A DNA stretch of 51,646 bases from Rhodoglobus sp. (lineage in GTDB: Bacteria; Actinomycetota; Actinomycetes; Actinomycetales; Microbacteriaceae): contig JAODLY010000010.1 of the NCBI GenBank assembly GCA_025464445.1, positions 1-51,646 of the forward strand, given 5' to 3'. Position 1 is the stretch's first letter. Each line of letters starts with the position of its first letter. The notes beneath the pieces were generated by a model. The model saw only the letters and a program-made list of their open reading frames with translations. It ran no database searches and was not told the origin of the DNA. The position numbers were made by a program, and so were the translations under genes. Shown here one piece after another: positions 22,723 through 39,475 of the stretch.

Positions 22723-22740
22723 GCCGACGAGCCTAGCTTT

Positions 22741-23946: not shown

Positions 23947-24255
23947 TCCCCGCTGTCCAATTCAGTCAAATGGCTTGACAAATACTTTGTCATTACATTT
24001 TAATGAACGATCAAGCGAGCTGTCGTTTTTGACCAGCTTGTCAAGCGGAGAACAGGATGCCCGACGATGCGCCACCAGCACCGCCTGACTTCTGCCCTTC
24101 GTGGCATCCCGGCTCTCGGCGGTTCAATCGAACCGTCGCTCGGGTTGCTTGAGAACTCTCCAAACACTCACTGAGTGCGAGAGCGGCGAGCGCTGTGGTG
24201 GTCGACTCGCCGTCATACCGATGAGTAGCACCGAACACCTAGAGAAGGAAGAAAA
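23947..24255 (+). promoter_or_regulatory. Promoter, operator and long leader of the second ABC operon
   Basis: No gene is present in these 309 bases. A strong promoter has TTGACA (23975-23980), an 18-nt spacer and TTTAAT (23999-24004). Over its first half lies a perfect 7+3+7 palindrome, TGACAAA-TAC-TTTGTCA (23976-23992). TGTCATTACAT (23988-23998), shared with two other promoter regions in the window, overlaps its end. The remaining leader of about 245 nt has TTGAC-N6-GTCAA (24029-24044), a hairpin CGGTTC-AATC-GAACCG (24120-24135) and a 13-bp palindrome CACTCACTGAGTG (24165-24177). AGAGAAGGAAG precedes the TTG start. Nothing protein-like was seen in the leader. Confidence 0.72.
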
Positions 24256-25539
24256 TTGCGCAGATCACGAGGCAGCGTAGCCGTCGGACTCGCAGCGCTT
24301 ATGGCGCTGACGGGGCTCACGGCCTGCAGCACTGGCGGTAGCACGGACAATTCGAGTGGCCCTCCGCAGAGCAACGTGACCCTCACGGTGTCGCGCTGGT
24401 CCGGCCCACAGGCCGACGAGCAGAAGGTCCTGCTGGACCAATACACGAAGGAGACGGGCGTCAAGATCCAGTTCGACGCCATCGACTACGCGCAGCTCCA
24501 GCAGAAGCAGACGCTCAACATGAGCACCAAGACCGGTGGGTACGACCTCATCTACGTGCCGGAAGGGTGGGTCGGCTCTTACGTCAAGTCCGGTTACCTC
24601 ACCAAGCTCGATGACATGGTCAAAGACGCGACCCTGACCGGGGCCAACTGGGACTATGCGGACATCCAGCAGAGCGGCATCGACACGTATACCGTCGACG
24701 GCTCGCTCTACGGGCTGCCCTACTTCGTCCAGACGCCACTCCTGGTCTATGACAAGGACGCGCTCAAGACAGCTGGCCTCGCGGTGCCGAAGACCTGGGC
24801 CGACATCCTGAAGGCCGCGAAGTACTTCAAGGACCAGGGCACAGGGATCGCCCTTCCGTTCCGCCAGGGAACGGCCATCGGAAACCTGATGGCGGTGCTC
24901 CTCGCTGGTGACAGCACGAGCTTCTTCGACAAGAGCGGCAAGCTCGACCTCACCAACTCGAAGGTCGTCGACACGGTCCAGTTCATCCAGGACCTGAGCA
25001 AGTACGGACTCGAGGGCAGCAACGGATGGCACTGGGACGAGGTGAACAAGGCACTGCAGTTCGCGCAGGCTCCCATGGGCTTCACGACCTCCGGCCTGTT
25101 CTCCGCACTTGAAGACCCGAGCGCTTCGCAGGTCGCGGGCAAGCTCGGCTACGCGCCGATCCCCTATGCCGACAAGGCTGCAGGGCTCATCCAGTCCTGG
25201 TCGTGGGCCATTCCGGCCGACAGCAAGAACCAGCAGGAGGCATTCAAGCTCGGGGCCTGGCTCACGAGCAAGGAGCAGCAGAAGGCGATGGCTACGGTTG
25301 ACCCCGGCTTCATCAGCTTCCGCCAGTCGCTTGCCGATGACAAGGCGCTGGTGGCTAACGCCCCCTGGCTGCCTGCCATCAAGGAGGCGCTGTCCAACGG
25401 CGTGACCCTGCCGCTGCAGCCCGCCGCGACCGAGTTCATGACCGCGCTCGACGCTGGACTCTCCGGGGTGGTCACGAACGGTGACGACCCGAAGACGATG
25501 CTCCAAACCGTCCAGGCAAGCGAAGGATCGAAGTTCTAA
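24256..25539 (+). CDS. Sugar-binding lipoprotein of second ABC transporter (427 aa)
   Basis: A family-1 solute-binding protein with a lipoprotein signal: basic start, hydrophobic VAVGLAALMALTGLTAC with lipobox LTAC (Cys near 24), then a Gly/Ser/Asn linker. The mature part has VSRWSGPQADEQKVLLDQY, GYDLIYVPEGWVGSYVKSGYL and YGLPYFVQTPLLVYDKDAL, a typical CUT1 binding-protein pattern. The TTG start follows AGAGAAGGAAG; a weak start codon is unusual for a highly expressed protein. It is first in its operon, ahead of two permeases and the iol-like kinase, and separated from the permeases by a stable hairpin. The ligand may be a cyclitol or sugar given the downstream genes. Confidence 0.93.
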   Translation: MRRSRGSVAVGLAALMALTGLTACSTGGSTDNSSGPPQSNVTLTVSRWSGPQADEQKVLLDQYTKETGVKIQFDAIDYAQLQQKQTLNMSTKTGGYDLIYVPEGWVGSYVKSGYLTKLDDMVKDATLTGANWDYADIQQSGIDTYTVDGSLYGLPYFVQTPLLVYDKDALKTAGLAVPKTWADILKAAKYFKDQGTGIALPFRQGTAIGNLMAVLLAGDSTSFFDKSGKLDLTNSKVVDTVQFIQDLSKYGLEGSNGWHWDEVNKALQFAQAPMGFTTSGLFSALEDPSASQVAGKLGYAPIPYADKAAGLIQSWSWAIPADSKNQQEAFKLGAWLTSKEQQKAMATVDPGFISFRQSLADDKALVANAPWLPAIKEALSNGVTLPLQPAATEFMTALDAGLSGVVTNGDDPKTMLQTVQASEGSKF

Positions 25540-25551
25540 CAGGTCCATGAT

Positions 25552-25597
25552 GATCGGGTGCGGGTAGGCGCCGAGAGGCACCCACCCGCATCCGATC
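25552..25597 (+). other. Intercistronic stem-loop between binding protein and permease
   Basis: GATCGGGTGCGGGT (25552-25565) pairs with ACCCGCATCCGATC (25584-25597) over 14 positions with a single G-U pair and an 18-nt loop. Such hairpins after binding-protein genes protect the upstream mRNA or partly terminate, giving more binding protein than permease. Confidence 0.75.
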
Positions 25598-25639
25598 TCA
25601 TCTGCGCCATTGCCCCTTCACAGACGGAACTCGATTGAC

Positions 25640-26557
25640 ATGAGCACCACAACAGCACGACTCGCCCCGCTGCGATCCCGGCCGGGGTATGCGAAGAGGG
25701 AACTGCGCCTGGCGTACTTCCTCATCCTGCCCGCGGCGCTCGCGATCTTCCTCGTGATGATCCTGCCGCTCGGATTCGCGATCTATGCGAGCTTCTTCCA
25801 GTACAGCCTGGGCCAGCCCATGGTGTTCGTGTTCTTCGACAACTACATCGCGTTCTTCAAAGACGCCACGGCGCTCAGGTCGCTGCTCAACACCATCATC
25901 TTCACCGTGCTCTCGCTCAGCCTCTGCATCTCGATAGGGGTCGGGATGTCCGTGCTCCTGAAGAGCCTGAGCCCGCGCGTGGGCAACGTGCTGCGCGCGA
26001 TCTTCGCGATGCCGATCCTCATCTCGCCGATCATCGCGAGCCTGATCTGGCGCTACATGTACGACCCGACTTACGGGCTCATCTACTTCGTGTTGAATTC
26101 GATAGGGCTGCACGGCTTCGGCGGCCTCACGGCGTCGAGCACTGCGCTCATCTGCATAGTCATCACCGATGTCTGGCACGCGACCCCGTTCATCATCCTC
26201 GTCGCGTCGGCAGGCCTGACAGTCATTCCTGAGGAGCTGTACGAGGCTGCCCGGATCGACGGCGCGGGCGCGGCCCGCACGCTGTTCAACGTGACGCTCC
26301 CGCTACTGACCAAGACCCTCGTCATCCTGATTCTCATTCGCGGCACAGACGCCTTCAGGGTCTTCGACCTGATCTACGGTCTCACCGGTGGTGGCCCGGC
26401 CAACTCCACGACATCGCTGAGCATCTTCGCGTACCAGCAGGCTTACGAGAACAACCAGATGGGCTACGGCATGGCCGTGGCCGTGCTCACCCTCATCGCC
26501 CTGATCCTGCTGTTCGGTCCGCTAATGCGGAACTCCGCGCGGGGAAGGGCCGAGTGA
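25640..26557 (+). CDS. Sugar ABC transporter permease, MalF/UgpA type (305 aa)
   Basis: A CUT1 inner-membrane permease with six membrane segments (first LRLAYFLILPAALAIFLVMI) and the EAA loop YEAARIDGAGAARTLFNVTLP near residues 206-226. The ATG at 25640 was chosen over a TTG 30 nt upstream because the protein then starts with the usual short basic tail (RSRPGYAKRELR); the ribosome site is weak. The stop overlaps the next permease start (GTGATG). No ATPase gene is present in this operon either. Confidence 0.92.
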   Translation: MSTTTARLAPLRSRPGYAKRELRLAYFLILPAALAIFLVMILPLGFAIYASFFQYSLGQPMVFVFFDNYIAFFKDATALRSLLNTIIFTVLSLSLCISIGVGMSVLLKSLSPRVGNVLRAIFAMPILISPIIASLIWRYMYDPTYGLIYFVLNSIGLHGFGGLTASSTALICIVITDVWHATPFIILVASAGLTVIPEELYEAARIDGAGAARTLFNVTLPLLTKTLVILILIRGTDAFRVFDLIYGLTGGGPANSTTSLSIFAYQQAYENNQMGYGMAVAVLTLIALILLFGPLMRNSARGRAE

Positions 26558-27390
26558 TGCGCGCCACGCGAAAGGTCAGGCCGGCCTCTGTGGTCAAGTG
26601 GATCATCCTCGTGGTGTTCCTCATCTGGACAGTCGTGCCGATCGCGCTCGTCGTGATCAACTCGTTCAAGGTGCCGAAGGACATCTTCACCAAGGCACCG
26701 ACGCTCATTTTCCAGCCCACGATCCAGAACTACGTGAACGCGTTCACGAAGAGTGACTTCGGCAGCTACTTCCTCAACAGCACAATCGTGGCGCTCAGCT
26801 CGACGGTCATCGTGATCCTGATCGGCACCTTCGCCGCGTACGGCCTGACGAGTTTCCAGTTGCGTGCGGCGAACGGCATCGCCAACGGGTTCCTCGTGGG
26901 CAAGCTCGTGCCGGTGATCGCGTTACTGCTTCCGCTATTCGTCATCATCAATGCCATCGGGCTGCGCGGAACCCTCGCCGGCCCCGCTATCGCGCATGTC
27001 GCGTTGAACCTGCCCTTCGCGGTCTGGCTGCTCATGGGATTCATCCGTGATGTTCCCCAGGAACTGGAGCAGGCGGCGATGATCGACGGCTGCACGAAGA
27101 TGCAGGCGTTCTGGCGGGTGCTGCTGCCGGTGATCCTGCCCGGCGTCGCCGCTGTGTTCATCCTGAGCATGCAGTATTCGTGGAACGAACTGCTGTTCTC
27201 GCTGCAACTGACCACGATCGGCACATACACGCTGCCGGTCGGCATCGCGAGTTTCGTGGGTGCCGTCTCCGTCGACTGGGGCACGAGTAGCGCGGCCGCC
27301 ACCCTGACCATGGCCCCGATGATCGTGCTCGGCTTCTTCGTGCAGAAATACCTCGCAGAGGGCACTACAGGCGGGGCGGTGAAGGGATGA
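26557..27390 (+). CDS. Sugar ABC transporter permease, MalG/UgpE type (277 aa)
   Basis: The second CUT1 permease, with a first membrane segment WIILVVFLIWTVVPIALVVI, the typical NSFKVPKDIF stretch after it, and the EAA loop EQAAMIDGCTKMQAFWRVLLP near residues 168-188. The start could be GTG 26554 or ATG 26557; both follow GGGGAAGGG. It overlaps the kinase gene by 4 nt (ATGA), tying transport directly to sugar-acid or cyclitol phosphorylation. Confidence 0.93.
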   Translation: MRATRKVRPASVVKWIILVVFLIWTVVPIALVVINSFKVPKDIFTKAPTLIFQPTIQNYVNAFTKSDFGSYFLNSTIVALSSTVIVILIGTFAAYGLTSFQLRAANGIANGFLVGKLVPVIALLLPLFVIINAIGLRGTLAGPAIAHVALNLPFAVWLLMGFIRDVPQELEQAAMIDGCTKMQAFWRVLLPVILPGVAAVFILSMQYSWNELLFSLQLTTIGTYTLPVGIASFVGAVSVDWGTSSAAATLTMAPMIVLGFFVQKYLAEGTTGGAVKG

Positions 27391-28343
27391 CCGCGCCCGC
27401 ACTCGACGTGCTCACCATCGGCCGCGTGGGGGTCGACCTCTACCCGCTACAGGACAACGTCGGGCTCGAGGATGTCACGACCTTCGGCAAGTACCTCGGA
27501 GGCAGCGCCACGAATGTCGCGGTCGCGGCCGCGAGGCACGGGCGGGCGAGCGCCGTAATCACCCGCACCGGTGACGATCCTTTCGGCCGCTTCGTGGCGC
27601 GCGAGATCGCCAGGCTCGGCGTCGACGGCAGCTTCGTGGATGTCGTGCCCGGCCTGAACACGCCAGTGACCTTCTGCGAGATCTTCCCGCCAGACAACTT
27701 TCCGATCTACTTCTACCGCGAACCCATCGCACCCGACCTCATGATCACGGCCGAGTCGCTCGACCTCGATGCGATCCGTTCTGCAGGGGTGTACTGGTCG
27801 ACGGTGACCGGGCTCAGCCGCGAACCGAGCCGCAGCGCGCACGCCGCGGCCTGGGCAGCGCGGGCCAGGGCCGAGAACACCGTGCTCGATCTCGACTACC
27901 GTCCGATGTTCTGGGAAAGCGCGATCGAGGCGAGAACGCAGGTCGCAGCAGCGCTCGAGCACGTCACGGTGGCCGTCGGGAACCGCGAGGAGTGTGAGGT
28001 CGCCGTCGGCGAGACCGAACCACACCGCGCCGCCGACGCCCTGCTCGAGCGGGGCGTCTCGCTCGCGATCGTGAAGCAGGGGCCGAGGGGTGTGCTCGCC
28101 AAAACGCGCGAAGAGGTTGTCGAGGTGCCGGCGGTCGAGGTGAGAGTCGTCAACGGCCTCGGGGCTGGTGACGGCTTCGGTGGGGCCCTGTGCCATGGGT
28201 TGTTGAGCGGGTGGTCGCTCGAGCGCACCCTACGGTTCGCGAATGTGGCAGGCGCGATCGTCGCGAGCCGCCGCGAATGTGCAACGGCCATGCCGACGTC
28301 GGCAGAAGTCGAAGAGTTCATGGGGAGAGGTGGCGCCCGATGA
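27387..28343 (+). CDS. iolC: PfkB-family kinase, IolC-like (5-dehydro-2-deoxygluconokinase), 318 aa
   Basis: A ribokinase-fold sugar kinase. IolC phosphorylates 5-dehydro-2-deoxygluconate (DKG) in inositol breakdown. The N-terminus LTIGRVGVDLYPLQDNVGLE is the IolC-type signature; GGSATNVAVAAARHG (substrate loop), TPVTFCEIFPPDNFPIYFYR and the C-terminal anion-hole and catalytic base GLGAGDGFGGALCHGLL (Asp near 258) complete the fold. It overlaps the barrel aldolase by 4 nt. IolB and IolD, which normally make its substrate, are not in the window, so either they lie elsewhere or this kinase acts on a related deoxy-keto acid. Confidence 0.87.
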   Translation: MTAPALDVLTIGRVGVDLYPLQDNVGLEDVTTFGKYLGGSATNVAVAAARHGRASAVITRTGDDPFGRFVAREIARLGVDGSFVDVVPGLNTPVTFCEIFPPDNFPIYFYREPIAPDLMITAESLDLDAIRSAGVYWSTVTGLSREPSRSAHAAAWAARARAENTVLDLDYRPMFWESAIEARTQVAAALEHVTVAVGNREECEVAVGETEPHRAADALLERGVSLAIVKQGPRGVLAKTREEVVEVPAVEVRVVNGLGAGDGFGGALCHGLLSGWSLERTLRFANVAGAIVASRRECATAMPTSAEVEEFMGRGGAR

Positions 28344-29224
28344 CCGAGTCGGACTTCGAGGCAGTGCGCAATGCGAGGGCGGGCGATCCCGGCGCGATCG
28401 AGCGCGCACTCGCCGGACGCAAACGCAGGCCGCTGCTGGTCGGCGACAAGCGGCTGTTCATCCTGGCCGCGGATCATCCCGCCCGCGGGTCCCTCGGAGT
28501 GCGCGAGGACGGGATGGCGATGGCCGACAGGTACGACCTGCTCGAACGGCTCGCGGCGGCGCTGCAGAACCCCCTCGTCGACGGGTTCCTGGGCACGGCG
28601 GATCTCGTCGAGGACCTCGCCCTGATGGGCTCGCTCGAGAACAAGATCGTTGTGGGATCGATGAACCGCGGCGGGCTCAAATCCGCAGTTTTCGAGATGG
28701 ACGACCGGTTCACGGCATACGACCTGGACACGATCCGCAGCTACAACCTCGACTTCGCCAAGCTCCTCGTGCGTATCAACCTGGACGATGCCGGATCCGT
28801 GCACACCCTGCACACCGCCGCCGAGATCGTGACTCGCGCGGCCGAAGCCCACCTGCCGATAATGATCGAGCCGTTCATGAGCGAGTGGGTCGACGGGTCT
28901 ATTCGCAACGACCTCACCGCGGATGCCGTGATCAAGTCGATTGCGATCGCCTCTGCGCTCGGGGCGAGCTCGGCATACTCCTGGCTCAAGCTGCCCGTCG
29001 TGCCCGACATGGAGCGGGTAATGAAGGCGACGACCCTGCCGACCCTCCTGCTCGGCGGCGATCCGCTCATGCAGTCCCATGAGATCTATGAGTCGTGGGA
29101 GAACGCGCTCTCCCTTCCCGGGGTTCATGGACTCGTCGTCGGCCGCACCCTGCTCTATCCCCCTGACGGCGACGTCATGGGTGCCGTAGAGCGCGCAGCC
29201 CAGCTGGTCCATCACGCGCGCTGA
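28340..29224 (+). CDS. iol-associated (beta/alpha)8-barrel aldolase-like protein (Cgl0158 type), 294 aa
   Basis: A class-I aldolase-like barrel that in actinobacteria often follows iolC. Landmarks are RLFILAADHPARGSLGV (about 38-54), GTADLVEDLALMGSLENKIVVGSMNRGGL, FAKLLVRINLDDAGS, PIMIEPFMSEWVDG and AYSWLKLPVVPDME with a candidate Schiff-base Lys. It probably splits the phosphorylated deoxy-keto acid made by the upstream kinase into a triose phosphate and a semialdehyde, the job done by IolJ elsewhere. The ATG at 28340 overlaps the kinase stop (ATGA); the in-frame upstream extension was rejected. Confidence 0.85.
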   Translation: MTESDFEAVRNARAGDPGAIERALAGRKRRPLLVGDKRLFILAADHPARGSLGVREDGMAMADRYDLLERLAAALQNPLVDGFLGTADLVEDLALMGSLENKIVVGSMNRGGLKSAVFEMDDRFTAYDLDTIRSYNLDFAKLLVRINLDDAGSVHTLHTAAEIVTRAAEAHLPIMIEPFMSEWVDGSIRNDLTADAVIKSIAIASALGASSAYSWLKLPVVPDMERVMKATTLPTLLLGGDPLMQSHEIYESWENALSLPGVHGLVVGRTLLYPPDGDVMGAVERAAQLVHHAR

Positions 29225-29265
29225 GTGTCACCAGTTCCACCCCCACCAACGAAGGATCCCGCAGG

Positions 29266-30771
29266 ATGACCGCTATGACCATGCCCGCCGTGTCCCACTG
29301 GATCGACGGCAAGCCCCGACCGGGCACCGGCGGACGGTTCGGCCCGATCTTCGACCCGGCGCTGGGCCGGCAGGTGCGATCGGTGCCGCTCGCCGGCGAG
29401 GCCGAGATCGCGGAGGCCATCGCGTCGGCTGCTGCGGCTTTTCCCGCTTGGCGCGATGCGTCTATGGCGAAACGCCTGACCATCATGTTCGCCTTCCGTG
29501 AGCTGTTGAATGCGCGCAAGGCCGAGCTCGCCGAGCTCATCACCGAGGAGCACGGCAAGGTGCTCTCCGATGCCCTCGGGGAGATCGCGAGAGGCCAGGA
29601 GGTCGTCGAGTTCGCGCTGGGTTTTCCGCACCTCACGAAGGGCGAATACTCCGAGAACGTCTCCACGGGCGTCGATGTGTATTCGCTGCGCCAGCCGCTC
29701 GGCGTCGTCGGCGTGATCAGCCCGTTCAACTTTCCGGCGATGGTGCCGCTCTGGTTTGTTCCCGTCGCGATCGCGGCAGGCAACACCGTTGTGCTCAAGC
29801 CGAGCGAGAAGGACCCATCGGCCGCGATCTGGATCGCCGGACTGTTCGCCGAGGCCGGGCTGCCGCCGGGAGTGTTGACGGTGCTGCATGGAGACAAGCA
29901 GGCGGTGGACGGACTGCTGGAGCATCCCGATGTCGCATCGATAAGTTTCGTCGGCTCGACGCCGATCGCGAAGTACGTATATGAGACGGGAACACGCAAC
30001 GGCAAGCGGGTGCAGGCACTCGGCGGCGCCAAGAACCACATGCTCGTGCTTCCGGATGCCGACCTCGACCTCGTCGCAGACTCCGCCGTCAACGCGGGGT
30101 TCGGGTCGGCGGGAGAACGCTGCATGGCGATCTCGGTGATCGTGGCCGTCGAACCGGTGGCGGACGTGCTCATCGAGAAGATCGCGCAGCGGATGGCCAC
30201 ACTCCGGGTGGGCGATGGCCGGCGCGGGTGTGACATGGGCCCGCTCGTGACCGAGCAGCACAGGGACAAGGTCGCGTCGTACCTCGACATCGCGAGCCAG
30301 GACGGCGCGACGATCGTGGTCGATGGTCGGGGCATCCAGGTCGATGGTGACCCAAACGGGTTCTGGCTCGGGCCGACCCTCATCGACAACGTGCCCACGA
30401 CATCCCGGGTCTACACCGAGGAGATCTTCGGCCCAGTTCTCTCGATCGTGCGGGTCGCCAGCTATGAGCAGGGCGTCGCCCTGATCAACGGCAACCAGTA
30501 CGGCAATGGCACCGCGATCTTCACAAATGACGGGGGAGCGGCGCGACGATTCCAGAACGAGGTGACCGTGGGAATGATCGGTATCAACGTGCCGATCCCC
30601 GTGCCGGTCGCCTACTTCTCGTTCGGCGGCTGGAAGGACTCGCTATTCGGTGACGTCAAGGCGTACGGCGCCGCGGGCTTCCATTTCTTCACCCGCGAGA
30701 AGGCCGTCACGAGCCGCTGGCTCGACCCGTCGCACGGCGGGATCAATCTCGGATTCCCGCAGAACGCGTGA
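29266..30771 (+). CDS. mmsA: Methylmalonate-semialdehyde dehydrogenase, CoA-acylating (501 aa)
   Basis: An aldehyde dehydrogenase that turns malonate/methylmalonate semialdehyde plus CoA into acetyl-/propionyl-CoA and CO2; the last step of inositol breakdown as IolA. Family marks are SHWIDGKPRPG at the start, GVISPFNFPAMVPLWFVPVAIA, KPSEKDPSA, FVGSTPIAKYVYETG, and the catalytic Cys in GSAGERCMAIS (near 287). The CoA-acylating branch lacks the usual Glu general base, and AKNHMLVLPDADLD at that place agrees. Following the iolC-like kinase and aldolase, it would remove their semialdehyde product. Convergent with the GntR gene, 2 nt between stops. Confidence 0.93.
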   Translation: MTAMTMPAVSHWIDGKPRPGTGGRFGPIFDPALGRQVRSVPLAGEAEIAEAIASAAAAFPAWRDASMAKRLTIMFAFRELLNARKAELAELITEEHGKVLSDALGEIARGQEVVEFALGFPHLTKGEYSENVSTGVDVYSLRQPLGVVGVISPFNFPAMVPLWFVPVAIAAGNTVVLKPSEKDPSAAIWIAGLFAEAGLPPGVLTVLHGDKQAVDGLLEHPDVASISFVGSTPIAKYVYETGTRNGKRVQALGGAKNHMLVLPDADLDLVADSAVNAGFGSAGERCMAISVIVAVEPVADVLIEKIAQRMATLRVGDGRRGCDMGPLVTEQHRDKVASYLDIASQDGATIVVDGRGIQVDGDPNGFWLGPTLIDNVPTTSRVYTEEIFGPVLSIVRVASYEQGVALINGNQYGNGTAIFTNDGGAARRFQNEVTVGMIGINVPIPVPVAYFSFGGWKDSLFGDVKAYGAAGFHFFTREKAVTSRWLDPSHGGINLGFPQNA

Positions 30772-30773
30772 GC

Positions 30774-31523
30774 CTACTTCTCGACGAGCGTGACCTCGAA
30801 CGAGTAGAGGTCGGGGCGGTAGGAGTGTTCGCCGAACTCGACGGCGTGGCCGGACTGGTCGAAGAGGGTGCGCGACATCACGAGCACGGGCGAACCGGGC
30901 TTCTGGTCGAAGAGCTGCGCCTCCTCGGCCGTGCCCACCCGCGCCCCGATCGTCTGCCGCGCGACGCGCATCGTCGTGCCCCTGGCGCGCATGAGCTGGT
31001 ACAGCCCGTGCTTCTCGAACTGCTCAGCGGTGAGGGTGAGGAACTCCGGCGGGAGGTAGTTCTCGAGCAGCGCGAAAGGTACACCGTCGCTGAAGCGCAG
31101 TCGCTTGATGTGCAGCACTGTCGCGTCGGCAGGAAGGGTGAGCGACTCGAGGATCTCGGCGGACGGCCTCATCTCCTCATGCAGCAGAACCTTCGTCGTC
31201 GGGGAGCGGTTGGAGATGCTCAGGTCGTCGTAGAGGCTCGTGAGTTCGACGCTGCGGGTGAGGCGGCCGCGCACGACCTGGGTGCCGACGCCGCGCCTGC
31301 GGACGAGGAGGCCCTGGTCGACGAGCTCCTGGATCGCGCGGCGAATCGTCGGCCGGGAGATGGCGAGATGCTCGGCGAGCTTGAGCTCGTTCTCGATGCG
31401 CGAGCCGGGCGCGAGGTCTCCGCGCTCGATCGCCTCCTGCATCCGTCGCGCGATCTGGTAGTAGAGCGGAATCGGACCGGACCGGTCGAGATCCATGAAG
31501 AGTTCTTCGGTGGAAATCGTCAT
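30774..31523 (-). CDS. GntR-family regulator, HutC/UTRA type (249 aa)
   Basis: The winged helix (about 15-80: PLYYQIARRMQEAIERGDLAPGSRIENELKLAEHL, then SRPTIRRAIQEL and LLVRRRGVGTQV) is followed by a UTRA effector domain (about 95-245) with LLENYLPPEFLTL and SRTLFDQSGHAVEFGEHSYRPDLYSFEV. Such proteins bind sugar phosphates or related acids. ATG at 31523 starts the normal domain; the longer frame crosses the divergent promoter. In actinobacteria a GntR regulator commonly controls iol genes. I propose it binds the TGTCATTACAT element found at 23988, 34457 and 39461; a weaker relative, ATTACAT, lies at 31587-31593 in its own upstream region. Confidence 0.9.
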   Translation of the reverse strand: MTISTEELFMDLDRSGPIPLYYQIARRMQEAIERGDLAPGSRIENELKLAEHLAISRPTIRRAIQELVDQGLLVRRRGVGTQVVRGRLTRSVELTSLYDDLSISNRSPTTKVLLHEEMRPSAEILESLTLPADATVLHIKRLRFSDGVPFALLENYLPPEFLTLTAEQFEKHGLYQLMRARGTTMRVARQTIGARVGTAEEAQLFDQKPGSPVLVMSRTLFDQSGHAVEFGEHSYRPDLYSFEVTLVEK

Positions 31524-32691: not shown

Positions 32692-33652
32692 CGACCCCTT
32701 CGCGCGTGATGCCCGTGACCGGGGCATCCGTGCCCGGGAACGCCGTGAGGGTGATCCAGCTCGAGACGCTCTCGCCCGGCTCCAGCGTGAAAGCCTGGCC
32801 GCGGTCGCGGGCCGGCGCGAGGCCGTCGAAAGGCCACGAGCGCTGGGGTTCCAGCCCGAGCATCCTCGCCCTGCCGTACCAGGGGAAGCCGGGGTCGGCG
32901 TTCTGCAGCCAGACCCAGAGGTGGGGAAACGCCTCGAGGTCCCAGGCCAGTCCGAGTGCCTGGCCCTCGTCGCCCGTTGGTGGTCGCAGGGCCACCCACC
33001 CCTCGGTGAGGCCGGTCTGGTAGGTCAGGCGCACCTGGTCGTCGGCGGGGACCAGCCGCAGGTCTTCCGTGCCGCCGTCGCGCCGTGCAACGTGTGGCCA
33101 GGTGCCGGCGACGGCCGCGAGTGGGCCCGTGCTGGCCGGCTCGACCTCGACTGCCGGCGCGCCGGGCAGGTCGATGCGCGACCCTGCCACTGCCGGGAAC
33201 GTGGGATGGTGGCCCCAGATGAACTGGACGGGCCGCGCTCCCACGCACGTGACGGTCTCCTCCACGTACAACGCGGCGCGGTCGGTTGCCAGGCGCACGG
33301 TGCGGGTGAGCTCGAGGGGCAGGCGCGCGACGGCGCGCAGCGTGCACGAGGCATCCTCGACCGACAGCACGGTGAGGCGGGCCAGGGATGTCTCGCCGTG
33401 GAATGCGACCGGCACCCCGTCGATGACGCTCTCCGCGCCGGCGTTGGGGAAGAGTACCTGCCACCCGGCGTGGTAGCGCGAGAGCCAGTCGAGTTCTGTC
33501 GAGCCATAGCGCGGTCCGTCGTCGACGGACAGCGGGGAGTCCCACTCGTGCCAGGCGAGCAGGTTGGCACCGCCGGCGCTGATCGAGCGGAACTCGCCGC
33601 CCCGGTCAGGATCGAGTTCGACGCGGAGGAAGGGGGAGTGCAGATTGATCAT
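32678..33652 (-). CDS. Aldose 1-epimerase-like (galactose-mutarotase fold) protein, 324 aa
   Basis: A beta-sandwich of the aldose-epimerase/DUF4432 superfamily. It begins LHSPFLRVELDPDRGGEFRSIS, has GWQVLFPNAGAESVIDG, the paired-His segment QFIWGHHPTFP (near 168-178) and the C-terminal LWVWLQNADPGFPWYGRARMLGLEPQ, where the conserved Glu of LEPQ corresponds to a catalytic acid/base in this fold. Such proteins interconvert anomers of sugars or remain uncharacterised. It is translationally coupled to the SDR (1-nt overlap), so it likely prepares or receives that enzyme's substrate. Confidence 0.85.
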   Translation of the reverse strand: MINLHSPFLRVELDPDRGGEFRSISAGGANLLAWHEWDSPLSVDDGPRYGSTELDWLSRYHAGWQVLFPNAGAESVIDGVPVAFHGETSLARLTVLSVEDASCTLRAVARLPLELTRTVRLATDRAALYVEETVTCVGARPVQFIWGHHPTFPAVAGSRIDLPGAPAVEVEPASTGPLAAVAGTWPHVARRDGGTEDLRLVPADDQVRLTYQTGLTEGWVALRPPTGDEGQALGLAWDLEAFPHLWVWLQNADPGFPWYGRARMLGLEPQRSWPFDGLAPARDRGQAFTLEPGESVSSWITLTAFPGTDAPVTGITREGVVTTG

Positions 33653-34437
33653 CAGCTGTGCTTGTGGCCCACGGAGCCATTGAGGCTCAGGCCACCATCG
33701 ACGAGAAGCATCTGGCCCGTGACGTAGCGCGCGGCGGGCGATCCGAGCATGACTATCGTGTCCGCGATCTCCTCGGGCGAGGCGATGCGGGCCAGGGGGA
33801 TGCGCTCGCGGTAGGTCGCCCTGACCTCATCGGTGTAGCTCTCGGCGTTCAGCGGCGTCTCTGTCGCGCCTGGCGCTATCGAGTTGACGGTGACGCCCAT
33901 CGGGCCGAGCTCGACGGCGAGCGAGCGTGTGAGGCCGCCGATTCCGCCCTTCGCGGTGACGTAGGCGGTCATGTCGGTCGGGGGCAATGGGTCGACGGCC
34001 GAGCTGATGTTGATGATGGTGCCCGTGCCCGCTGGCACCATGTGGCGTGCTGCCGCGCGTGCGCCGCGGATGTAGCCGAACAGGTTGGTCTCGAGTAGGT
34101 CGTGCCACTCGTCGTCGTCCATCGACAGGAACGGCGTGACGAGCAGCCGGGCGGCGTTGTTCACCCAGACGTCTATGCCGCCCCAGAGTCGCACCGTCTC
34201 GTCGGCGAGGGCGTCGACGTCCGCGGTGGATGCTGTGTCCCCGACCGCGATGTGTGCCTCACCGCCCCGCTCCCGGATAGCCCGCGAGAGCTCCTCGGAG
34301 ACCGCGGGGTCGGTGCCACGGTGCAGTCCCGCGACGTTGTAGCCGGCCTCAGCGAAGGCCAGCGCCGCCGCCCGGCCGATCCCGCGCGAGATTCCGGTGA
34401 TGACGACTGTGCGCCTGGCTGGGTGGGGATTGGCCAC
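33652..34437 (-). CDS. Short-chain dehydrogenase/reductase (261 aa)
   Basis: A classical SDR with the cofactor motif TGISRGIG (about 14-21), VNNAA near 90, the catalytic Ser in INISSAVDP, the YVTAK active site (Tyr-x3-Lys near 155-159) and the C-terminal VTGQMLLVDGG. The GTG at 34437 follows AGGAGG by six bases and gives normal length; the longer in-frame extension runs past the divergent promoter and was rejected. It could oxidise a sugar, sugar acid or cyclitol; a 2-keto-3-deoxy-fuconate dehydrogenase role is one option given the L-fuconate dehydratase further right. The upstream gap carries the shared TGTCATTACAT element. Confidence 0.9.
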   Translation of the reverse strand: MANPHPARRTVVITGISRGIGRAAALAFAEAGYNVAGLHRGTDPAVSEELSRAIRERGGEAHIAVGDTASTADVDALADETVRLWGGIDVWVNNAARLLVTPFLSMDDDEWHDLLETNLFGYIRGARAAARHMVPAGTGTIINISSAVDPLPPTDMTAYVTAKGGIGGLTRSLAVELGPMGVTVNSIAPGATETPLNAESYTDEVRATYRERIPLARIASPEEIADTIVMLGSPAARYVTGQMLLVDGGLSLNGSVGHKHS

Positions 34438-34456
34438 GAAGTCCTCCTGGGCTAAT

Positions 34457-34467
34457 ATGTAATGACA
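34457..34467 (-). promoter_or_regulatory. Shared 11-bp element TGTCATTACAT, copy 2
   Basis: It reads ATGTAATGACA on the plus strand, within the 78-nt divergent gap between the SDR and the Gfo gene at 34516. Together with the next base it forms ATGT-AATG-ACAT. Identical to the copies at 23988-23998 and 39461-39471. Resembles the C. glutamicum IolR consensus KGWCHTRACA at 9 of 10 positions as I recall that consensus. Confidence 0.65.
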
Positions 34468-34515
34468 TTCTGACCGCACGACCTTCCGAAGTCCAGCCGA
34501 GAGAAACGGACATTC

Positions 34516-35664
34516 ATGACGCCGAGCCCCAAGCCCCGCGCCGCCCTGGTCGGGACGGGGTTCATCGGTGCTGTCCATCTCGAAGCGCTGCGCCGGCTCG
34601 CCATTCCGATAGTGGGCGTCGTTGCGTCCACTGCAGCAAAAGCTGCCCAAAAGGCGGCCGAATGGGAAATCGAACGCGGCTATGCGAGCTACGAGGAAAT
34701 GCTCGGTGATGACCGGGTGGACGTCGTGCACATCACCTCGCCTAACGACGAGCACTTCGCCCAGGCGAAGGCGGCCCTGCTCGCCGGCAAGCACGTCGTG
34801 TGCGAGAAGCCCCTCGCGATGAGCTCAGTCGAGACCGGCGAATTGGCGGAGCTTGCGGCATCCACCGGGCTGGTCGCCGCGGTGAACTTCAACGTGCGGT
34901 TCTACCCGCAGGTGCACGACATGCGCGAGCGCGTGACGAGTGGCTCCGTCGGCGCGCCCTACCTCGTTATCGGCTCGTACCTGCAGGACTGGCTGTTGCA
35001 CGACACCGACTGGAACTGGCGGGTGGAGAGCGAGCGCGGCGGGGCGCTGCGTGTCGTCGGGGACGTGGCATCCCATTGGTTCGACCTTGCGAGCTTCGTG
35101 ACGGGGCAACAGATCGTCGAGGTCATGGCCGACCTCACCAACTTCGTGCCGGTGCGCAGGCGCCCGGTCGGCGAGGTCGCCACGTTCTCCGCCGCGAGCG
35201 GGGAGACCGTCGACTTCGCCGTGACATCGGAGGATGCCGCGAGCATCCTGCTGCGCTTCGACGGCGGTGCGCGTGGTGTCGTCACGGCATCCCAGGTCAG
35301 CGCGGGGCGCAAGAACGCGATATCGATCGAGGTGAATGCCGCAGAGTCATCCCTCGCCTGGGCGGGCGAGCGACCGGATGAGTTGTGGATCGGTCACCGC
35401 TCCACGCCCAACGAGCTCTCGCTGCGTGACCCGTCGCTGCTGACCGCATCGGCCGCCGCGATCGCCGGCCTGCCGGGCGGGCACGCCGAGGGTTTCGAGA
35501 ACGCGTTCAAGGCGCTGTACGCCTCGATCTACGCGGACGTCGCCGCGGGAGGCCCCTCGGCCGATTCGCTTTACGCGACATTCGCCGACGGCCATCATGA
35601 GGCCCTCATCGTCGAAGCGGTCGCGGAGAGCGCCCGCACGGGCACCTGGGCAACCGTCGCCTGA
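34516..35664 (+). CDS. Gfo/Idh/MocA-family oxidoreductase (382 aa)
   Basis: The Rossmann start is AALVGTGFIGAVHLEALRRL, the EKP motif is residues 97-99 (VVCEKPLAMS), and the C-terminal domain has NFNVRFYPQVHDMRERV, DTDWNWRVESERGGALRVVGDVASHW with the conserved Asp/His pair expected in sugar-oxidising members. The GAMVSG-type tail is replaced by HHEALIVEAVAESARTGTW, typical of the MviM/YcjS group. It heads a rightward run (34516-37542) with the TIM-barrel isomerase and another Gfo gene, downstream of a shared operator, so it probably belongs to the GntR regulon. It likely oxidises a cyclitol or sugar hydroxyl to a ketone. Confidence 0.91.
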   Translation: MTPSPKPRAALVGTGFIGAVHLEALRRLAIPIVGVVASTAAKAAQKAAEWEIERGYASYEEMLGDDRVDVVHITSPNDEHFAQAKAALLAGKHVVCEKPLAMSSVETGELAELAASTGLVAAVNFNVRFYPQVHDMRERVTSGSVGAPYLVIGSYLQDWLLHDTDWNWRVESERGGALRVVGDVASHWFDLASFVTGQQIVEVMADLTNFVPVRRRPVGEVATFSAASGETVDFAVTSEDAASILLRFDGGARGVVTASQVSAGRKNAISIEVNAAESSLAWAGERPDELWIGHRSTPNELSLRDPSLLTASAAAIAGLPGGHAEGFENAFKALYASIYADVAAGGPSADSLYATFADGHHEALIVEAVAESARTGTWATVA

Positions 35665-35704
35665 CAACTGGCGCTGTCGCTAACAACTCACGAAGGAGAA
35701 CGCA

Positions 35705-36622
35705 ATGAAGCTGGGACTCTTGACCGCGGCATTCCCCACCCTCACGCTCGACCAGGTGTCGACCTGGGCGGCTGCCAACGGGTTCGAGGCGATCGAGGTG
35801 GCGGTCTGGCCGTCAGGCGGCGGCAAAGCACGCAGGTACGCGGGCACTGCGCACATCGACGTGCTCGCCCTCGATCGCTCCGGCGCAGACCAGATCGTCT
35901 CTGATCTCGCCGCGAAGGGCCTGTCGATCTCCGCCCTCGCCTACTATCCCAACCCGCTCTCCGCCGACCCCGAAGAGGCCGTCGCGGCATTCGAGCACCT
36001 CAAGGCAGTCGTGCGCGCGGCGAAGATGCTCGGCGTTCCCACGGTGGGAACGTTCGCCGGGCGGGACAAGACCACATCCCTCGACGAGAACTTCGACACC
36101 TTCGCACGGGTGTGGCCCCAGATGGTGCACTACGCCGGCGACCAGGGCGTGCGCATCGCCATAGAGAACTGCCCGATGATCTTCAGCGGGGATGAGTGGC
36201 CGGGTGGCACGAACATCGCCTACAGCCCCGCGAACTGGCGGCGGATGTTCGAGATCATCCCGGACGAGAACTTCGGCCTGAACTTCGACCCTTCGCACCT
36301 TGTCTGGCAGTTCATCGACATCCCCAGGGCGGTGCACGAGTTCGGTGAGCGCATCTTCCACGTACACGCCAAAGACCTCGAGGTGCGCAGGGATGGCCTG
36401 TACGACCACGGCGTGATGAGCGCGGGCGTCGGCTGGCAGGTGCCACGGCTGTGCGGCCTCGGCGAGGTGAACTGGGGCGCGTTTTTCGGTGCGCTCTACG
36501 CGGTCGGTTACGACTACGTCGCATCCGTAGAGCACGAGGACCGCGCGTTCGAGGGCTCCGTGGAGATCGTGCAGCGCGGGTTCACCATTGCCAGGGACAA
36601 CCTGCGCCCCTTCGTGCACTGA
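35705..36622 (+). CDS. Sugar phosphate isomerase/epimerase-like TIM barrel (305 aa)
   Basis: A xylose-isomerase-like barrel with clear metal ligands: Glu in IAIENCPMIF (near 155), Asp/His in NFDPSHLVWQ (near 195), His in IFHVHAKDLEV (near 220) and Glu in ASVEHEDRAF (near 279). A long WPGGTNIAYSPANWRRMFEII loop is characteristic of its subgroup. Relatives include IolE/IolH-type inositol enzymes and subunits that eliminate the aglycone from 3-keto-glycosides. GAAGGAG precedes the ATG. It sits between two Gfo genes, overlapping the second by 1 nt, which favours action on a Gfo-made keto sugar. Confidence 0.9.
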   Translation: MKLGLLTAAFPTLTLDQVSTWAAANGFEAIEVAVWPSGGGKARRYAGTAHIDVLALDRSGADQIVSDLAAKGLSISALAYYPNPLSADPEEAVAAFEHLKAVVRAAKMLGVPTVGTFAGRDKTTSLDENFDTFARVWPQMVHYAGDQGVRIAIENCPMIFSGDEWPGGTNIAYSPANWRRMFEIIPDENFGLNFDPSHLVWQFIDIPRAVHEFGERIFHVHAKDLEVRRDGLYDHGVMSAGVGWQVPRLCGLGEVNWGAFFGALYAVGYDYVASVEHEDRAFEGSVEIVQRGFTIARDNLRPFVH

Positions 36623-37542
36623 TGGCGGCGCTGCGCTTCGGCGTCGTCGGAACCGGCACCTGGGCGCAGCGGGTGCACGTGCCCGCGGCGCTCGCGAGCG
36701 ACCGAGCACCCCTGGTGGCCGTGCTGGGCCGGGATGCCGCACGCACCGCCGCGCTCGTTGAGGGCACCCCAGCACTCGCCTACACTGACGCCGGGTCATT
36801 TCTCGACGCCGTCGATATCGTGGGATTCGCCGTGCCACCGGACGTGCAGTCCGGGCTCGCGGCCACAGCGATCGAGGCGGGCAAGCACCTGCTGCTCGAG
36901 AAGCCGGTGTCGATGGATGCCGCTGTCGCCCGTACGCTGGCCGCCCGGGCGGCTGAGCGCGGCATCCATTCGACCGTATTCTTCCCGCACCTGCTGGTGC
37001 CGGTGTTCGCCGAGTGGGCGGCCGGGATGCGTGAGCGGGATGGCTGGCGCCTCGGGCGGGTCGAGTCGTACTCCTCGGTGCTCGCCGACCCGGCGAACCC
37101 CTTCCACGACTCGCCATGGCGGCACGAGCACGGTGCGCTCTGGGACGTCGGTCCGCACGCCATCGCCCAGCTCTGCGCGGTTCTCGGACCGGTCACGAGT
37201 GTGGTCGGAAGGCGCGGGCCGGGCGACCTGGTCTCGCTGTTGCTCGAGCACCGGGCGGGCGCCCAGGGCGCGGTGTCGATGGCGGCGGACTTCCCCCCGC
37301 CCGCCCCGGCCGGCGGAGGAACCTACTTCATCGGGGTGCACGGCAGGGCACAGCAGCCCTCCGTACCCGATTGGGATGCCGCGGCCAGGGATGCCTATCT
37401 GGCCGCGATCGCCCACCTGGCCGACCAGGTCGAGCATGGCGCACCGCAGCACAGGAGCGACCTCGGCTTCGGCGCGCACGTCACGGCGGTGCTCGCCGCG
37501 GCCGAACAATCGATGAGCTCCGGCCGCGCGGAGACCGTCTAG
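36622..37542 (+). CDS. Gfo/Idh/MocA-family oxidoreductase, short form (306 aa)
   Basis: The Rossmann motif is RFGVVGTGTWAQRVHVPAAL, the EKP motif lies near residue 91 (LLLEKPVSMD), and DSPWRHEHGALWDVGPHAIAQL carries the conserved Asp/His region. At 306 residues it is about 30-80 shorter than the other Gfo proteins here; the C-terminal sheet is reduced. ATG at 36622 overlaps the isomerase stop by 1 nt (TGATG); the longer in-frame extension was rejected. Its partner role may be the reverse reduction step that regenerates the bound cofactor cycle. It converges with the amidohydrolase gene with a 4-nt overlap. Confidence 0.9.
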   Translation: MAALRFGVVGTGTWAQRVHVPAALASDRAPLVAVLGRDAARTAALVEGTPALAYTDAGSFLDAVDIVGFAVPPDVQSGLAATAIEAGKHLLLEKPVSMDAAVARTLAARAAERGIHSTVFFPHLLVPVFAEWAAGMRERDGWRLGRVESYSSVLADPANPFHDSPWRHEHGALWDVGPHAIAQLCAVLGPVTSVVGRRGPGDLVSLLLEHRAGAQGAVSMAADFPPPAPAGGGTYFIGVHGRAQQPSVPDWDAAARDAYLAAIAHLADQVEHGAPQHRSDLGFGAHVTAVLAAAEQSMSSGRAETV

Positions 37543-38306
37543 AGCGAGGCGATGAGAGCCGCGGCATTGCCCGCGAAGATCGCCTCACGGTCGGCCTCGG
37601 TGATGTCGGCCTCCTCGATGGAGCGGATGACGTCAGCCGGAGCGAAGAACGGCGCATCGCTGCCGAAGAACACCCGGCCGGAACCGATCTCGCGCACGAA
37701 GAATTCCGTGGTCGACGCCTCGGCCTGGTACGCGACGTCGAGGTGCACGTTGGGGTGGGCGAGCACAGCGGCCACGGCATCCGCCCGCTGGCCTTCTGTG
37801 AACACCGGATGCCCCATCACGAAGACCAGGTTCGGGTAGCGCCCTGCGACCGTCGCGATGGCCGAGGGGCTCGCCTTGGCGTCTGGCGTGGAATGCAGCA
37901 GCACGAGAGCGCGGTGATCCCCCACGGCTGCGAGCACGGCGTCGAATGCCGGCGAGTCGACCGAGAAGCCCTCGAACGTGGCGTGGAAGGCGAGCCCCTT
38001 CAGCCCGAGTTCGTCGAACGCCCTGCCCACTTCGGCGACGCTGGCAGCGCCGTGCCGCACCTCGATGCTCGCGAGCCCGAGCGGGAATAGCTCGGGATGC
38101 GCGGCTACGGCCGCAGCGATGCCGTCGTTCGCGCGCCGGGTGTCCTCGATGCCGCCGGACTGGAGCCCCCCGGCGGCCACGGAGAGGATCGCCTGGTGCA
38201 CGCCGCTGGTGCGCATGAGCGCCGTCCAGTCGTCGACGTTCTGCCCCACGCCCGAGGTGATGGTGTGGCCGATGTGCGAGTGCACATCGATGATCGTGCG
38301 AGCCAC
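37539..38306 (-). CDS. Amidohydrolase-family metal-dependent hydrolase (255 aa)
   Basis: A TIM-barrel hydrolase with the N-terminal metal motif IIDVHSHIGH (His near 9 and 11), VFVMGHPVFTEG (metal His near 160), and the C-terminal Asp in RVFFGSDAPFF (near 215). The amidohydrolase-2 group includes sugar lactonases (for example L-fucono- and L-rhamnono-lactonase) and decarboxylases. It is the second gene after the Gfo at 38310 (3-nt gap, GTG start). A lactonase acting on a product of one of the neighbouring sugar dehydrogenases is the most natural guess, and an L-fuconolactonase would fill the one missing early step of the fucose route. Confidence 0.85.
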   Translation of the reverse strand: MARTIIDVHSHIGHTITSGVGQNVDDWTALMRTSGVHQAILSVAAGGLQSGGIEDTRRANDGIAAAVAAHPELFPLGLASIEVRHGAASVAEVGRAFDELGLKGLAFHATFEGFSVDSPAFDAVLAAVGDHRALVLLHSTPDAKASPSAIATVAGRYPNLVFVMGHPVFTEGQRADAVAAVLAHPNVHLDVAYQAEASTTEFFVREIGSGRVFFGSDAPFFAPADVIRSIEEADITEADREAIFAGNAAALIASL

Positions 38307-38309
38307 CTG

Positions 38310-39401
38310 CTACTCCGCGTCGGCGAGGGTGAGCTTGCGCCCCTCGCGGCCGGAGCGGTACGCGGCCTCGAGGATGAGCTGCGTCTTCAGGCCGAAGTTG
38401 CCGTCGCTGCGCACCGGGGTGTCGTTGAGGCAGGCGTCGACGAAGTGCTGATGCTCCGGCACCCACGGGCTTTCTTCACCGTTGATGTGCATGGAGAATT
38501 CGCGGTGGTCGGCGGCCATGACCGGGAGCTTGGGGCTTATCCAGCCGTCGGCCAGCAGTTTGTCGGTCGCGGAGGGTTCGCTCGTGTAGACGCGGAAGGT
38601 GGGGCGAGCCGCGGCATCCCACTGCACTGTGCCCTTGGTGCCGTAGACCGCCCACTGGTCCTTGAACGCCATTGTCGCGCCGCCGGGCTCCTGCAGGCGG
38701 TTGGAGCCGGAGATCTCGAGGATCGCCTTGTCGGTGCGAATGACGATGACCGCGGTGTCTTCGACCTGGATATCGGCGGTGAGTGCCCCGTACTCGGCGT
38801 AGACCGACTGGATCTGCGGGTCACCGAGCAGGTACATCGCGTTGGAGACGTGGTGCACATTGCCATCGAGGATGATGCCGCCGCCGGCGAGGGCTGGATC
38901 GAAACGCCAGCCCGCAGTCACGTCCGGGGTGTGCCAGGCCATGATCGCCTTGAACAGGAACGGCTCGCCAATGAGCCCGGCCTCGATGATCTCGCGTGCG
39001 CGCTCGACCGGGGGCAGGAAGAGTTCGAAGAAGGAGACCATGAGTTTGAGCCCGGTCTTCTCGGCAAGAGCCAGGGCCTCACGTGACTCCGCGACCGACG
39101 CGGTCATGGGCTTCTGCACGAGCACGTGCTTGCCGGCCTCGAGGGCCTTGATGATCAGCGGCCCGTGTGACTTCGATGACGTGGTGATCACGAGGGCGTG
39201 CACATCTTCTCGCGCGAGCACGGCGTCGAGGTCACTGGACCAGGTCTCGAAGCCGAAACGCTTCTGGAATCGCTGAGCGGCCTCTTCGTCGATGTCGACG
39301 GCCGCGATCAACTTGGCGTTCTCCACCTTGGAGAGAGCGAATGCGTGGCTGCGGGCGATACCGCCGCAGCCGACCATGGCGATGCCTAGCGTTTCGGGCA
39401 T
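38310..39401 (-). CDS. Gfo/Idh/MocA-family oxidoreductase with QKP motif (363 aa)
   Basis: The Rossmann start is IAMVGCGGIARSHAFALSKV. The usual EKP reads QKP at residues 96-98 (VLVQKPMTAS), keeping the catalytic-site Lys but losing the Glu. The C-terminal domain has AGWRFDPALAGGGIILDGNVHHVSNAMYLL. AAAGGAC precedes the ATG at 39401. It is the first gene of a leftward pair with the amidohydrolase and lies under the shared TGTCATTACAT element (39461-39471). The substrate is unknown; the EKP change may shift substrate or cofactor use. Confidence 0.9.
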   Translation of the reverse strand: MPETLGIAMVGCGGIARSHAFALSKVENAKLIAAVDIDEEAAQRFQKRFGFETWSSDLDAVLAREDVHALVITTSSKSHGPLIIKALEAGKHVLVQKPMTASVAESREALALAEKTGLKLMVSFFELFLPPVERAREIIEAGLIGEPFLFKAIMAWHTPDVTAGWRFDPALAGGGIILDGNVHHVSNAMYLLGDPQIQSVYAEYGALTADIQVEDTAVIVIRTDKAILEISGSNRLQEPGGATMAFKDQWAVYGTKGTVQWDAAARPTFRVYTSEPSATDKLLADGWISPKLPVMAADHREFSMHINGEESPWVPEHQHFVDACLNDTPVRSDGNFGLKTQLILEAAYRSGREGRKLTLADAE

Positions 39402-39446
39402 AAGTGCGTCCTTTCGACGACGATGTCTGGGGCCGGGAAAGAGAAA

Positions 39447-39475
39447 TTGTCCCGAGACCGATGTAATGACAGAAT
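39447..39475. promoter_or_regulatory. Shared 11-bp element TGTCATTACAT, copy 3, with candidate promoter
   Basis: ATGTAATGACA (plus strand, 39461-39471) lies in the divergent gap between the QKP-type Gfo and the HAD gene. A weak rightward promoter TTGTCC (39447-39452), 17-nt spacer, CAGAAT (39470-39475) would be covered by the element. The leftward promoter is not clear. Confidence 0.6.

Follow-up and report, generated by a model that had tools for sequence, protein, structure and literature searches.

Inositol use in Corynebacterium glutamicum is under the control of a GntR-type repressor (PMC9603128), IolR. This protein is described as repressing the inositol genes in the absence of inositol (PMC8634428, PMC9603128), and binding of myo-inositol is described to make it dissociate from the iolT1 promoter (PMC8634428). 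The core of a canonical inositol cluster is formed by IolB, IolC, IolD and IolE (PMC9430895). The present analysis concerns a stretch of 51,646 nucleotides from Rhodoglobus sp. (assembly GCA_025464445.1, contig JAODLY010000010.1), referred to as the window, from a genome of 2,836,859 bases in 57 contigs with a completeness of 99.6%. The window contains an 11-bp element, TGTCATTACAT, in three intergenic gaps, together with the gene of a GntR/UTRA regulator; of the four canonical core enzymes IolC is recognised, and IolB, IolD and IolE are not. Judged from sequence comparison, the element is most probably the operator of an IolR-type GntR/UTRA repressor, present in at least three divergent or operon promoters (O1, O2 and O3) and probably in a fourth gap, which holds the candidate O4 and the third copy of the element.

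Occurrence of the 11-bp element

Exact copies of TGTCATTACAT are located at 23988-23998 on the plus strand (copy 1) and at 34457-34467 and 39461-39471 on the minus strand (copies 2 and 3), as described in the initial annotation of this DNA, and all three lie between genes, in the gaps 23947-24255, 34438-34515 and 39402-39490, respectively. The initial annotation had also proposed a genome-wide search for the element and for closely related sites. Exactly three exact matches are found in the whole genome, all of them in one 15.5-kb part of the window, none inside a gene and with no sign of random-like occurrence; the backwards pattern gives no match. Three exact copies are far above chance. In shuffled versions of the window the mean number of matches with one mismatch allowed is 0.09, and three were reached in none of 100 shuffles. 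Looser forms do occur elsewhere in the genome, without excess over the backwards controls: TGTCATTACA with up to one mismatch yields 18 matches at 17 places (3 in the window; control 19) and TGTCNTDACA yields 10 (3 in the window; control 14). The signal therefore resides in the exact copies and their places.

The regulator and its operators in related genomes

The regulator, encoded at 30774-31523 on the minus strand, is a predicted GntR/UTRA repressor (PF00392 55.3 bits, PF07702 126.3 bits) which by its sequence is of the IolR type. It shows 53-62% identity to seven regulators outside this cluster type, and in 11 aligned GntR regulators, among them that of locus L046, the DNA-binding segment SRPT(I/V)RRAIQ(E/D)LV is near-invariant. 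Among structures, PDB entry 2p19, which we take to be from C. glutamicum, matches with 130.6 bits. When genomes were searched with the GntR protein, 40 loci were obtained, and the title of each names either a genus of the Microbacteriaceae or the family itself. Two of the loci, L021 (a Subtercola metagenome-assembled genome) and L022 (a Rhodoglobus metagenome-assembled genome), carry the cluster of the window as far as fetched.

The remaining 38 loci of the scan, together with 28 iolC loci from other genomes of the family (L074-L101), were used for counting operators. The pattern TGTNN[TA]NACA was sought up to 300 bp before iolC and gntR, a shared divergent gap being counted for both genes, so that the two counts are not independent. 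It is found upstream of 31 of 37 iolC genes and 39 of 41 gntR genes, compared to 3 of 37 and 1 of 41 for the reversed pattern and 0.82 and 0.54 per set for shuffled sequences. The stricter form TGTCNTNACA is present at 23 of 37 iolC and 38 of 41 gntR genes (reversed, 1 and 1). In 47 distinct sites the columns left free by the pattern are also biased, with C in 39, T in 45 (where T or A was allowed) and A or T at both flanks in all 47. In all eight chosen Microbacterium and Subtercola loci gntR is accompanied by iolC, the aldolase gene and mmsA; left out of this choice were L048, which has iolC and the aldolase gene and no mmsA in the stretch, and L060, which has no iolC. Of the inositol enzymes, IolB, IolD and IolG are above cut-off in L046, and IolD in L023.

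These counts bear on the idea that the 11-mer belongs to another local regulator, such as the LacI protein in the open reading frame at 21721-23769 or the ROK protein at 17153-18424, and that gntR is close by coincidence. Several regulators are indeed encoded nearby, and many regulators recognise short, nearly palindromic sequences such as this element. The motif, however, follows the GntR family through genomes with different neighbours and stands at gntR itself in those 39 of 41 cases, whereas in the 28 Curtobacterium-type loci neither the LacI nor the ROK protein of the window has a match within the fetched stretches of up to 10 kb on each side. This explanation is very unlikely, and the 11-mer is very likely the operator, as predicted, of the GntR/UTRA protein at 30774-31523.

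The initial annotation had remarked on a likeness of the element to the IolR consensus of C. glutamicum. Such a likeness fits with the comparison, as close homologues of the regulator adjoin inositol operons whose operators are of this kind too. Taking the consensus to be KGWCHTRACA, TGTCATTACA differs from it at one of 10 positions. The string KGWCHTRACA does not occur in the consulted parts of the literature, including PMC8634428, PMC12298647 and PMC6475665.

Operators and promoters in the window

For scoring of individual sites, a matrix of 15 positions was derived from 33 distinct sites, with the window, L021, L022 and the related genome G068 (2 contigs, 99% complete) excluded from training. 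The training sites have a median score of 23.2 and a leave-one-out minimum of 12.5. Conservation was assessed in a footprint alignment of the four genomes represented by the window, L021, L022 and G068. Trained without this cluster, the matrix ranks O3, O1 and O2 as the best three places in the window. In Markov text of the window length (60 trials) the mean number of sites is 0.03 at scores of at least 18 and 0.62 at scores of at least 13.

The predicted operator O3 (AATGTCATTACATAT, 34455-34469, minus strand) includes copy 2 and lies in the divergent gap between the genes of an SDR oxidoreductase and the Gfo oxidoreductase Gfo1. Its score of 23.5 is the highest in the window (20.3 on the opposite strand), and it is conserved as AGAATGTMWTKACAWA in all four genomes. 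The predicted operator O1 (TTTGTCATTACATTT, 23986-24000, plus strand), which includes copy 1, takes second place with a score of 23.1 (20.9 on the opposite strand) and is kept as TTTGTnAnTACATTT in all four genomes. O1 is situated in the spacer of the likely sigma-70 promoter of the ABC transporter-iolC operon (23975-24004, plus strand), which consists of TTGACA at 23975-23980, an 18-bp spacer and TTTAAT at 23999-24004. The -35 box, operator and -10 box align in the window, L021, L022 and G068. The promoter is not among the results of the promoter scanner, which demands an A at position 2 of the second hexamer. A further matrix match (16.7) at 23969-23983 overlaps the -35 box, 17 bp from O1, with similar matches in L022 (16.4) and G068 (15.7); it may be a second operator or merely the -35 box.

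The third distinct place is taken by the predicted operator O2 (TTTGTCCTATCATTA, 31605-31619, minus strand; score 18.9), in the divergent gap (31524-31680) between gntR and an alcohol dehydrogenase (ADH) gene, which is found as CTTTGTCYTATCATT in all four genomes. The element of this gap is TGTCCTATCA at 31608-31617 (minus strand), conserved across the four compared genomes. The initial annotation had pointed to ATTACAT, which is present at 31587-31593 (plus strand), 14 bp before TGTCCTATCA, but which is not conserved in L021 or L022 and was rejected as the gntR operator.

The gap between the genes of Gfo3 and a HAD phosphatase is less straightforward. Copy 3, a possible secondary site, scores 10.4 in the direction of the initial annotation and 13.1 on the plus strand (39460-39474). 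The fully conserved element of this gap is TGTGCGAACA, 13 bp upstream of copy 3. The candidate operator O4 (TATGTGCGAACATTC, 39472-39486, minus strand), positioned over the spacer and -10 box of the Gfo3 promoter, scores 13.3 and is conserved as TATGTGCRAACATTCTSTCAT in all four genomes. Of the three copies reported in the initial annotation, the alignments thus indicate copies 1 and 2 to be conserved operators. Copy 3 is conserved in one half only and lies next to another candidate site, and the gntR gap holds one more predicted operator that is conserved. The broader proposal of one element and one GntR regulator serving several transcription units of the cluster is supported by the site counts, the matrix and the footprints. 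In L021 a site with a score of 23.4 is present at 719-733, close to where Gfo4 probably starts, between the Gfo4 homologue (match 4-657, minus strand) and another Gfo-like frame (807-1922, minus strand), and it supports Gfo4 as a predicted regulon member in that genome. A scan of the window against Rfam gave no family at the gathering threshold.

Several observations weigh against the operator assignment. The pattern TGTNN[TA]NACA is absent from the 300 bp before six of 37 iolC genes (L048, L083, L090, L091, L094 and L095) and two of 41 gntR genes (L060 and L090), and one of the 11 aligned regulators, that of genome G062 (L105), has no site above 12 at its gene. The sample is not free of redundancy, since many loci are close kin and 28 are Curtobacterium-type, and the loose choice of training sites by TGTNN[TA]NACA fixes six of their columns. 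O1 overlaps the promoter hexamers, and its conservation could serve RNA polymerase alone. Copy 3 is exact in the genome of the window, but L021, L022 and G068 no longer have its ACAT half. Copy 3 and O4 are both weak by matrix score: random text modelled on the four gaps reaches a score of at least 13 in 7% of 2000 trials, so that on score alone neither site of the Gfo3 gap is strong. A genome-wide search with a profile of 34 sites gives no match up to E = 10, which we attribute to the small amount of information in its 16 positions; in the window its matches are weak (E = 0.22, 0.32, 0.75, 1.4 and 8.6), all at the three places of the 11-mer, and O2 is not listed. The regulation of the window genes is predicted from DNA and protein sequences.

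Some of these points would agree with a simpler explanation, in which no regulator is involved and the copies represent promoter or chance sequence, look-alikes in AT-rich -10 surroundings: O1 and O4 overlap candidate -10 and -35 hexamers, and copy 3 is poorly conserved. However, the exact 11-mers fall three out of three in one cluster, the independent matrix puts two of the copies first, and the reversed-motif and shuffle controls are near zero, which makes this explanation extremely improbable. In 25 short loci of the same genome (78,036 bases, obtained from the looser motif searches and from searches for IolD and IolE, one of them, L071, inside the window) a single site scores at least 18; it is found in L064 (18.8), within the terminal part of a coding frame.

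Gene content of the cluster

Gene starts in the window were chosen among possible starts. The operon downstream of O1, all on the plus strand, begins with an ABC sugar-binding protein (SBP_bac_1 in Pfam, 24256-25539) and two ABC sugar permeases (25640-26557 and 26554-27390), relatives of UgpA/GlcT and GlcU/MalG in NCBIfam below the cut-offs. They are followed by IolC (5-dehydro-2-deoxygluconokinase, 27387-28343; TIGR04382 376.5 bits, cut-off 300), a Cgl0159-like (beta/alpha)8 protein (28340-29224; PF22649 401 bits) and the (methyl)malonate-semialdehyde dehydrogenase MmsA/IolA (29266-30771; TIGR01722 670 bits, cut-off 448.5). The Cgl0159-like protein, probably the 5-dehydro-2-deoxyphosphogluconate aldolase, matches PDB entry 3fok with E = 4.4e-106 and adjoins iolC in most fetched iolC loci.

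Divergent from gntR lies the gene of a Zn-dependent ADH of the Tdh/IolM-like superfamily (31681-32691, plus strand), with 181.8 bits to Tdh (cut-off 380) and 109.4 bits to IolM (cut-off 450). The O3 gap separates the SDR oxidoreductase (33652-34437, minus strand; recognised in NCBIfam at family level only) and a DUF4432 (aldose-epimerase-like) protein (32678-33652, minus strand; PF14486 37.3 bits, cut-off 32.5) from Gfo1 (34516-35664), a xylose-isomerase-like TIM barrel (35705-36622) and Gfo2 (36622-37542), all on the plus strand. From the O4 gap, Gfo3 (38310-39401) and an amidohydrolase_2 protein (37539-38306) read on the minus strand. A HAD phosphatase, Gfo4, the glucuronate isomerase UxaC, a UxuB-like reductase and the mannonate dehydratase ManD (39491-45087) read on the plus strand. 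UxaC (473 bits, cut-off 387) and ManD (674 bits, cut-off 550) are above their cut-offs and the UxuB-like reductase is below; no Gfo, SDR or ADH protein reaches an NCBIfam cut-off among the matches shown. A regulon spread over 15 kb had been suggested by the initial annotation; several units do carry the element, and the regulon probably extends past 39.5 kb because the HAD-Gfo4-UxaC-UxuB-ManD genes read from the same gap.

Two neighbouring features are of a different kind. Beside the cluster, at 18370-21862 (minus strand), a TIM barrel resembling IolO but below its cut-off is encoded together with a DUF993 protein (537 bits) and a further Gfo oxidoreductase, next to a LacI regulator; these perhaps form a second sugar pathway. 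At the other side, GATTGTCTGACAATC forms two identical palindromes 40 bp apart with a degenerate third midway (3 mismatches), at 49539-49553, 49559-49573 and 49579-49593. This set lies between the genes of a GntR/FCD regulator (48884-49516, minus strand) and a mandelate-racemase-like enolase (49644-50732, plus strand) and likely represents separate operators, as predicted, of that FCD regulator.

Absence of inositol core enzymes

IolB has no match in the genome of the window, in G068 or G062, or in the genomes of L021 and L022. IolD reaches at best 236 of 715 bits in the genome of the window, and none of the four relatives (G068, G062 and the genomes of L021 and L022) has an IolD above cut-off. 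The best IolE match, searched in the genome of the window only, is 43 of 290 bits, with 26.6 bits for the TIM barrel of the cluster, and the best IolG match among the window proteins scanned is 145 of 355 bits. The initial annotation had joined the genes under the element in one pathway, which does not follow because IolB, IolD and IolE are missing.

An IolC relative (E up to 1e-60) is present in 52 of 149 family genomes, 48 of which also have IolB above cut-off; the four without IolB are the genome of the window, G068, G062 and the fragmented G035. IolB is encoded 1.9-3.6 kb from iolC in six other genomes that were checked (G003, G030, G058, G065, G117 and G121). The cluster in G068 is the same as that of the window, as far as fetched. 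The mmsA gene is not beside the aldolase gene in L021, L022 and G068, and MmsA is above cut-off somewhere in all four genomes of the footprint alignment, twice in that of the window. Two genomes of the same genus, G075 and G133, have no IolC relative at E up to 1e-60, so that the cluster is patchy within the genus, either gained here or lost there.

In 51 other genomes of the family, the best match to the window IolC has an identity of 57-79%. The IolC tree places the window together with L022 and G068 (support 96/83), amid canonical IolCs and with L021 apart, and leaves its deep forks open. Since identities to IolCs of genomes with IolB are as high as 78%, the window IolC likely shares the substrate of canonical IolCs. 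An ordinary myo-inositol pathway might still operate if IolB, IolD and IolE were too diverged to recognise or located in assembly gaps. The genome is a draft of 57 contigs and encodes IolE-superfamily and thiamine diphosphate-dependent enzymes below cut-off. Yet its completeness is high, and IolB has no match in it at all; the relatives with the same cluster, namely G068 and the genomes of L021 and L022, likewise have no IolB match and no IolD above cut-off (a completeness being given for G068 only), and canonical IolB and IolD are clearly above cut-off in the sister locus L046. An ordinary pathway is therefore considered unlikely. The gene content rather suggests that the pathway is not plain inositol catabolism and that, of the inositol pathway, the cluster of roughly 20 genes has retained the lower part alone.

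G062, which likewise gives no match for IolB and no IolD above cut-off, carries a second cluster of different build (L104 9178-19901 and L105 1-3717). IolC and MmsA are encoded divergently from ABC, SDR, stand-alone DUF2090, DUF4432, ADH, TIM barrel, Gfo, SDR, lactonase and GntR proteins. The ADH and GntR proteins are 51% and 60% identical to those of the window, and a site of 17.9 is found at iolC, with none above 12 at gntR. The DUF4432 proteins of both clusters give no BLAST match at E 1e-3 and are alike at the Pfam level only. DUF2090 has been proposed as 5-dehydro-2-deoxyphosphogluconate aldolase from fitness data, according to the consulted part of the report (PMC9007349).

Proposed mechanism

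By analogy with IolR of C. glutamicum, the window protein most likely acts as a repressor. Without inducer it would cover the promoter region and block four gene sets: the ABC transporter-iolC-aldolase-mmsA operon; gntR and ADH; SDR-DUF4432 and Gfo1-TIM barrel-Gfo2; and Gfo3-amidohydrolase and HAD-Gfo4-UxaC-UxuB-ManD. Promoter occupancy would be clearest at O1, between the -35 (23975-23980) and -10 (23999-24004) boxes. Binding of a sugar-derived ligand to the UTRA domain would then release the repressor. The lower steps, by kinase, aldolase and MmsA, would yield dihydroxyacetone phosphate and acetyl-CoA, and the upper steps would be other than the known IolE-IolD-IolB steps.

UxaC carries out an aldose-ketose reaction on glucuronate, the same kind of reaction that IolB performs on 5-deoxyglucuronate. 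It is conceivable, although doubtful, that the cluster encodes an undescribed catabolic route which meets the inositol pathway only at 5-dehydro-2-deoxygluconate and keeps the IolR-type repressor as its switch, with the G062 cluster as an independent case. Other enzymes of the cluster would then perform ring opening and isomerisation, for instance the amidohydrolase and the TIM barrel of the IolE superfamily, with UxaC standing in for IolB.

The analysis develops the pattern of three repeats into a testable regulon with defined predicted operators, whose regulator belongs to a known family found across Microbacteriaceae. The comparison further suggests that an IolR-type operator can persist without the diagnostic inositol enzymes, and that the combination of IolC and IolR alone does not imply inositol use. 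Substrate and upper pathway thereby become direct experimental questions.

Comparison with known systems

The operons of levoglucosan and 3-keto-glycoside pathways of the LgdA type combine oxidoreductase and xylose-isomerase-like genes. Like these, the window has Gfo1, a xylose-isomerase-like protein and a second Gfo in one gene run. A levoglucosan-type pathway is not supported; the model for levoglucosan dehydrogenase gives Gfo1 156 of 650 bits. The Thermotoga-type inositol pathway proceeds through IolG, IolM, IolN and IolO to tagaturonate. The window neighbourhood resembles it in its Zn-dependent ADH, TIM-barrel epimerase and uronate enzymes. Unlike in that pathway, the IolM and IolO matches among the window proteins, at 109 of 450 and 53 of 300 bits, are far below cut-off, and a Thermotoga-type pathway is not supported for the window. 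Thermotoga IolR is described as a ROK protein in the consulted part of the source (PMC3750489).

The window regulator belongs to the same GntR/UTRA family as IolR of C. glutamicum, and in the window the iolC, Cgl0159-like and mmsA genes adjoin it. The same gene order is presumably found beside IolR in C. glutamicum. Unlike C. glutamicum IolR, the window regulator is accompanied by genes for an ABC transporter, for hexuronate enzymes and for oxidoreductases, without IolB, IolD and IolE. A closer counterpart is the inositol operon of Microbacterium oleivorans (L046), where a homologous GntR protein (58% identity) is divergent from iolC with an operator between them, and where IolC, aldolase and MmsA are homologous as well. 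There the neighbour of gntR is iolC, followed by the aldolase gene, mmsA and the genes of IolB (251.7 bits), IolD (826 bits) and IolG (357 bits), all three above cut-off; IolE was not identified in this locus, and IolB and IolD fail in the whole genome of the window. No description of a cluster without diagnostic inositol enzymes under such a regulator was found in the open-licence literature searched. By sequence, regulator and operator appear to be of a known kind, and the variant lies in their pairing with a cluster devoid of these diagnostic enzymes.

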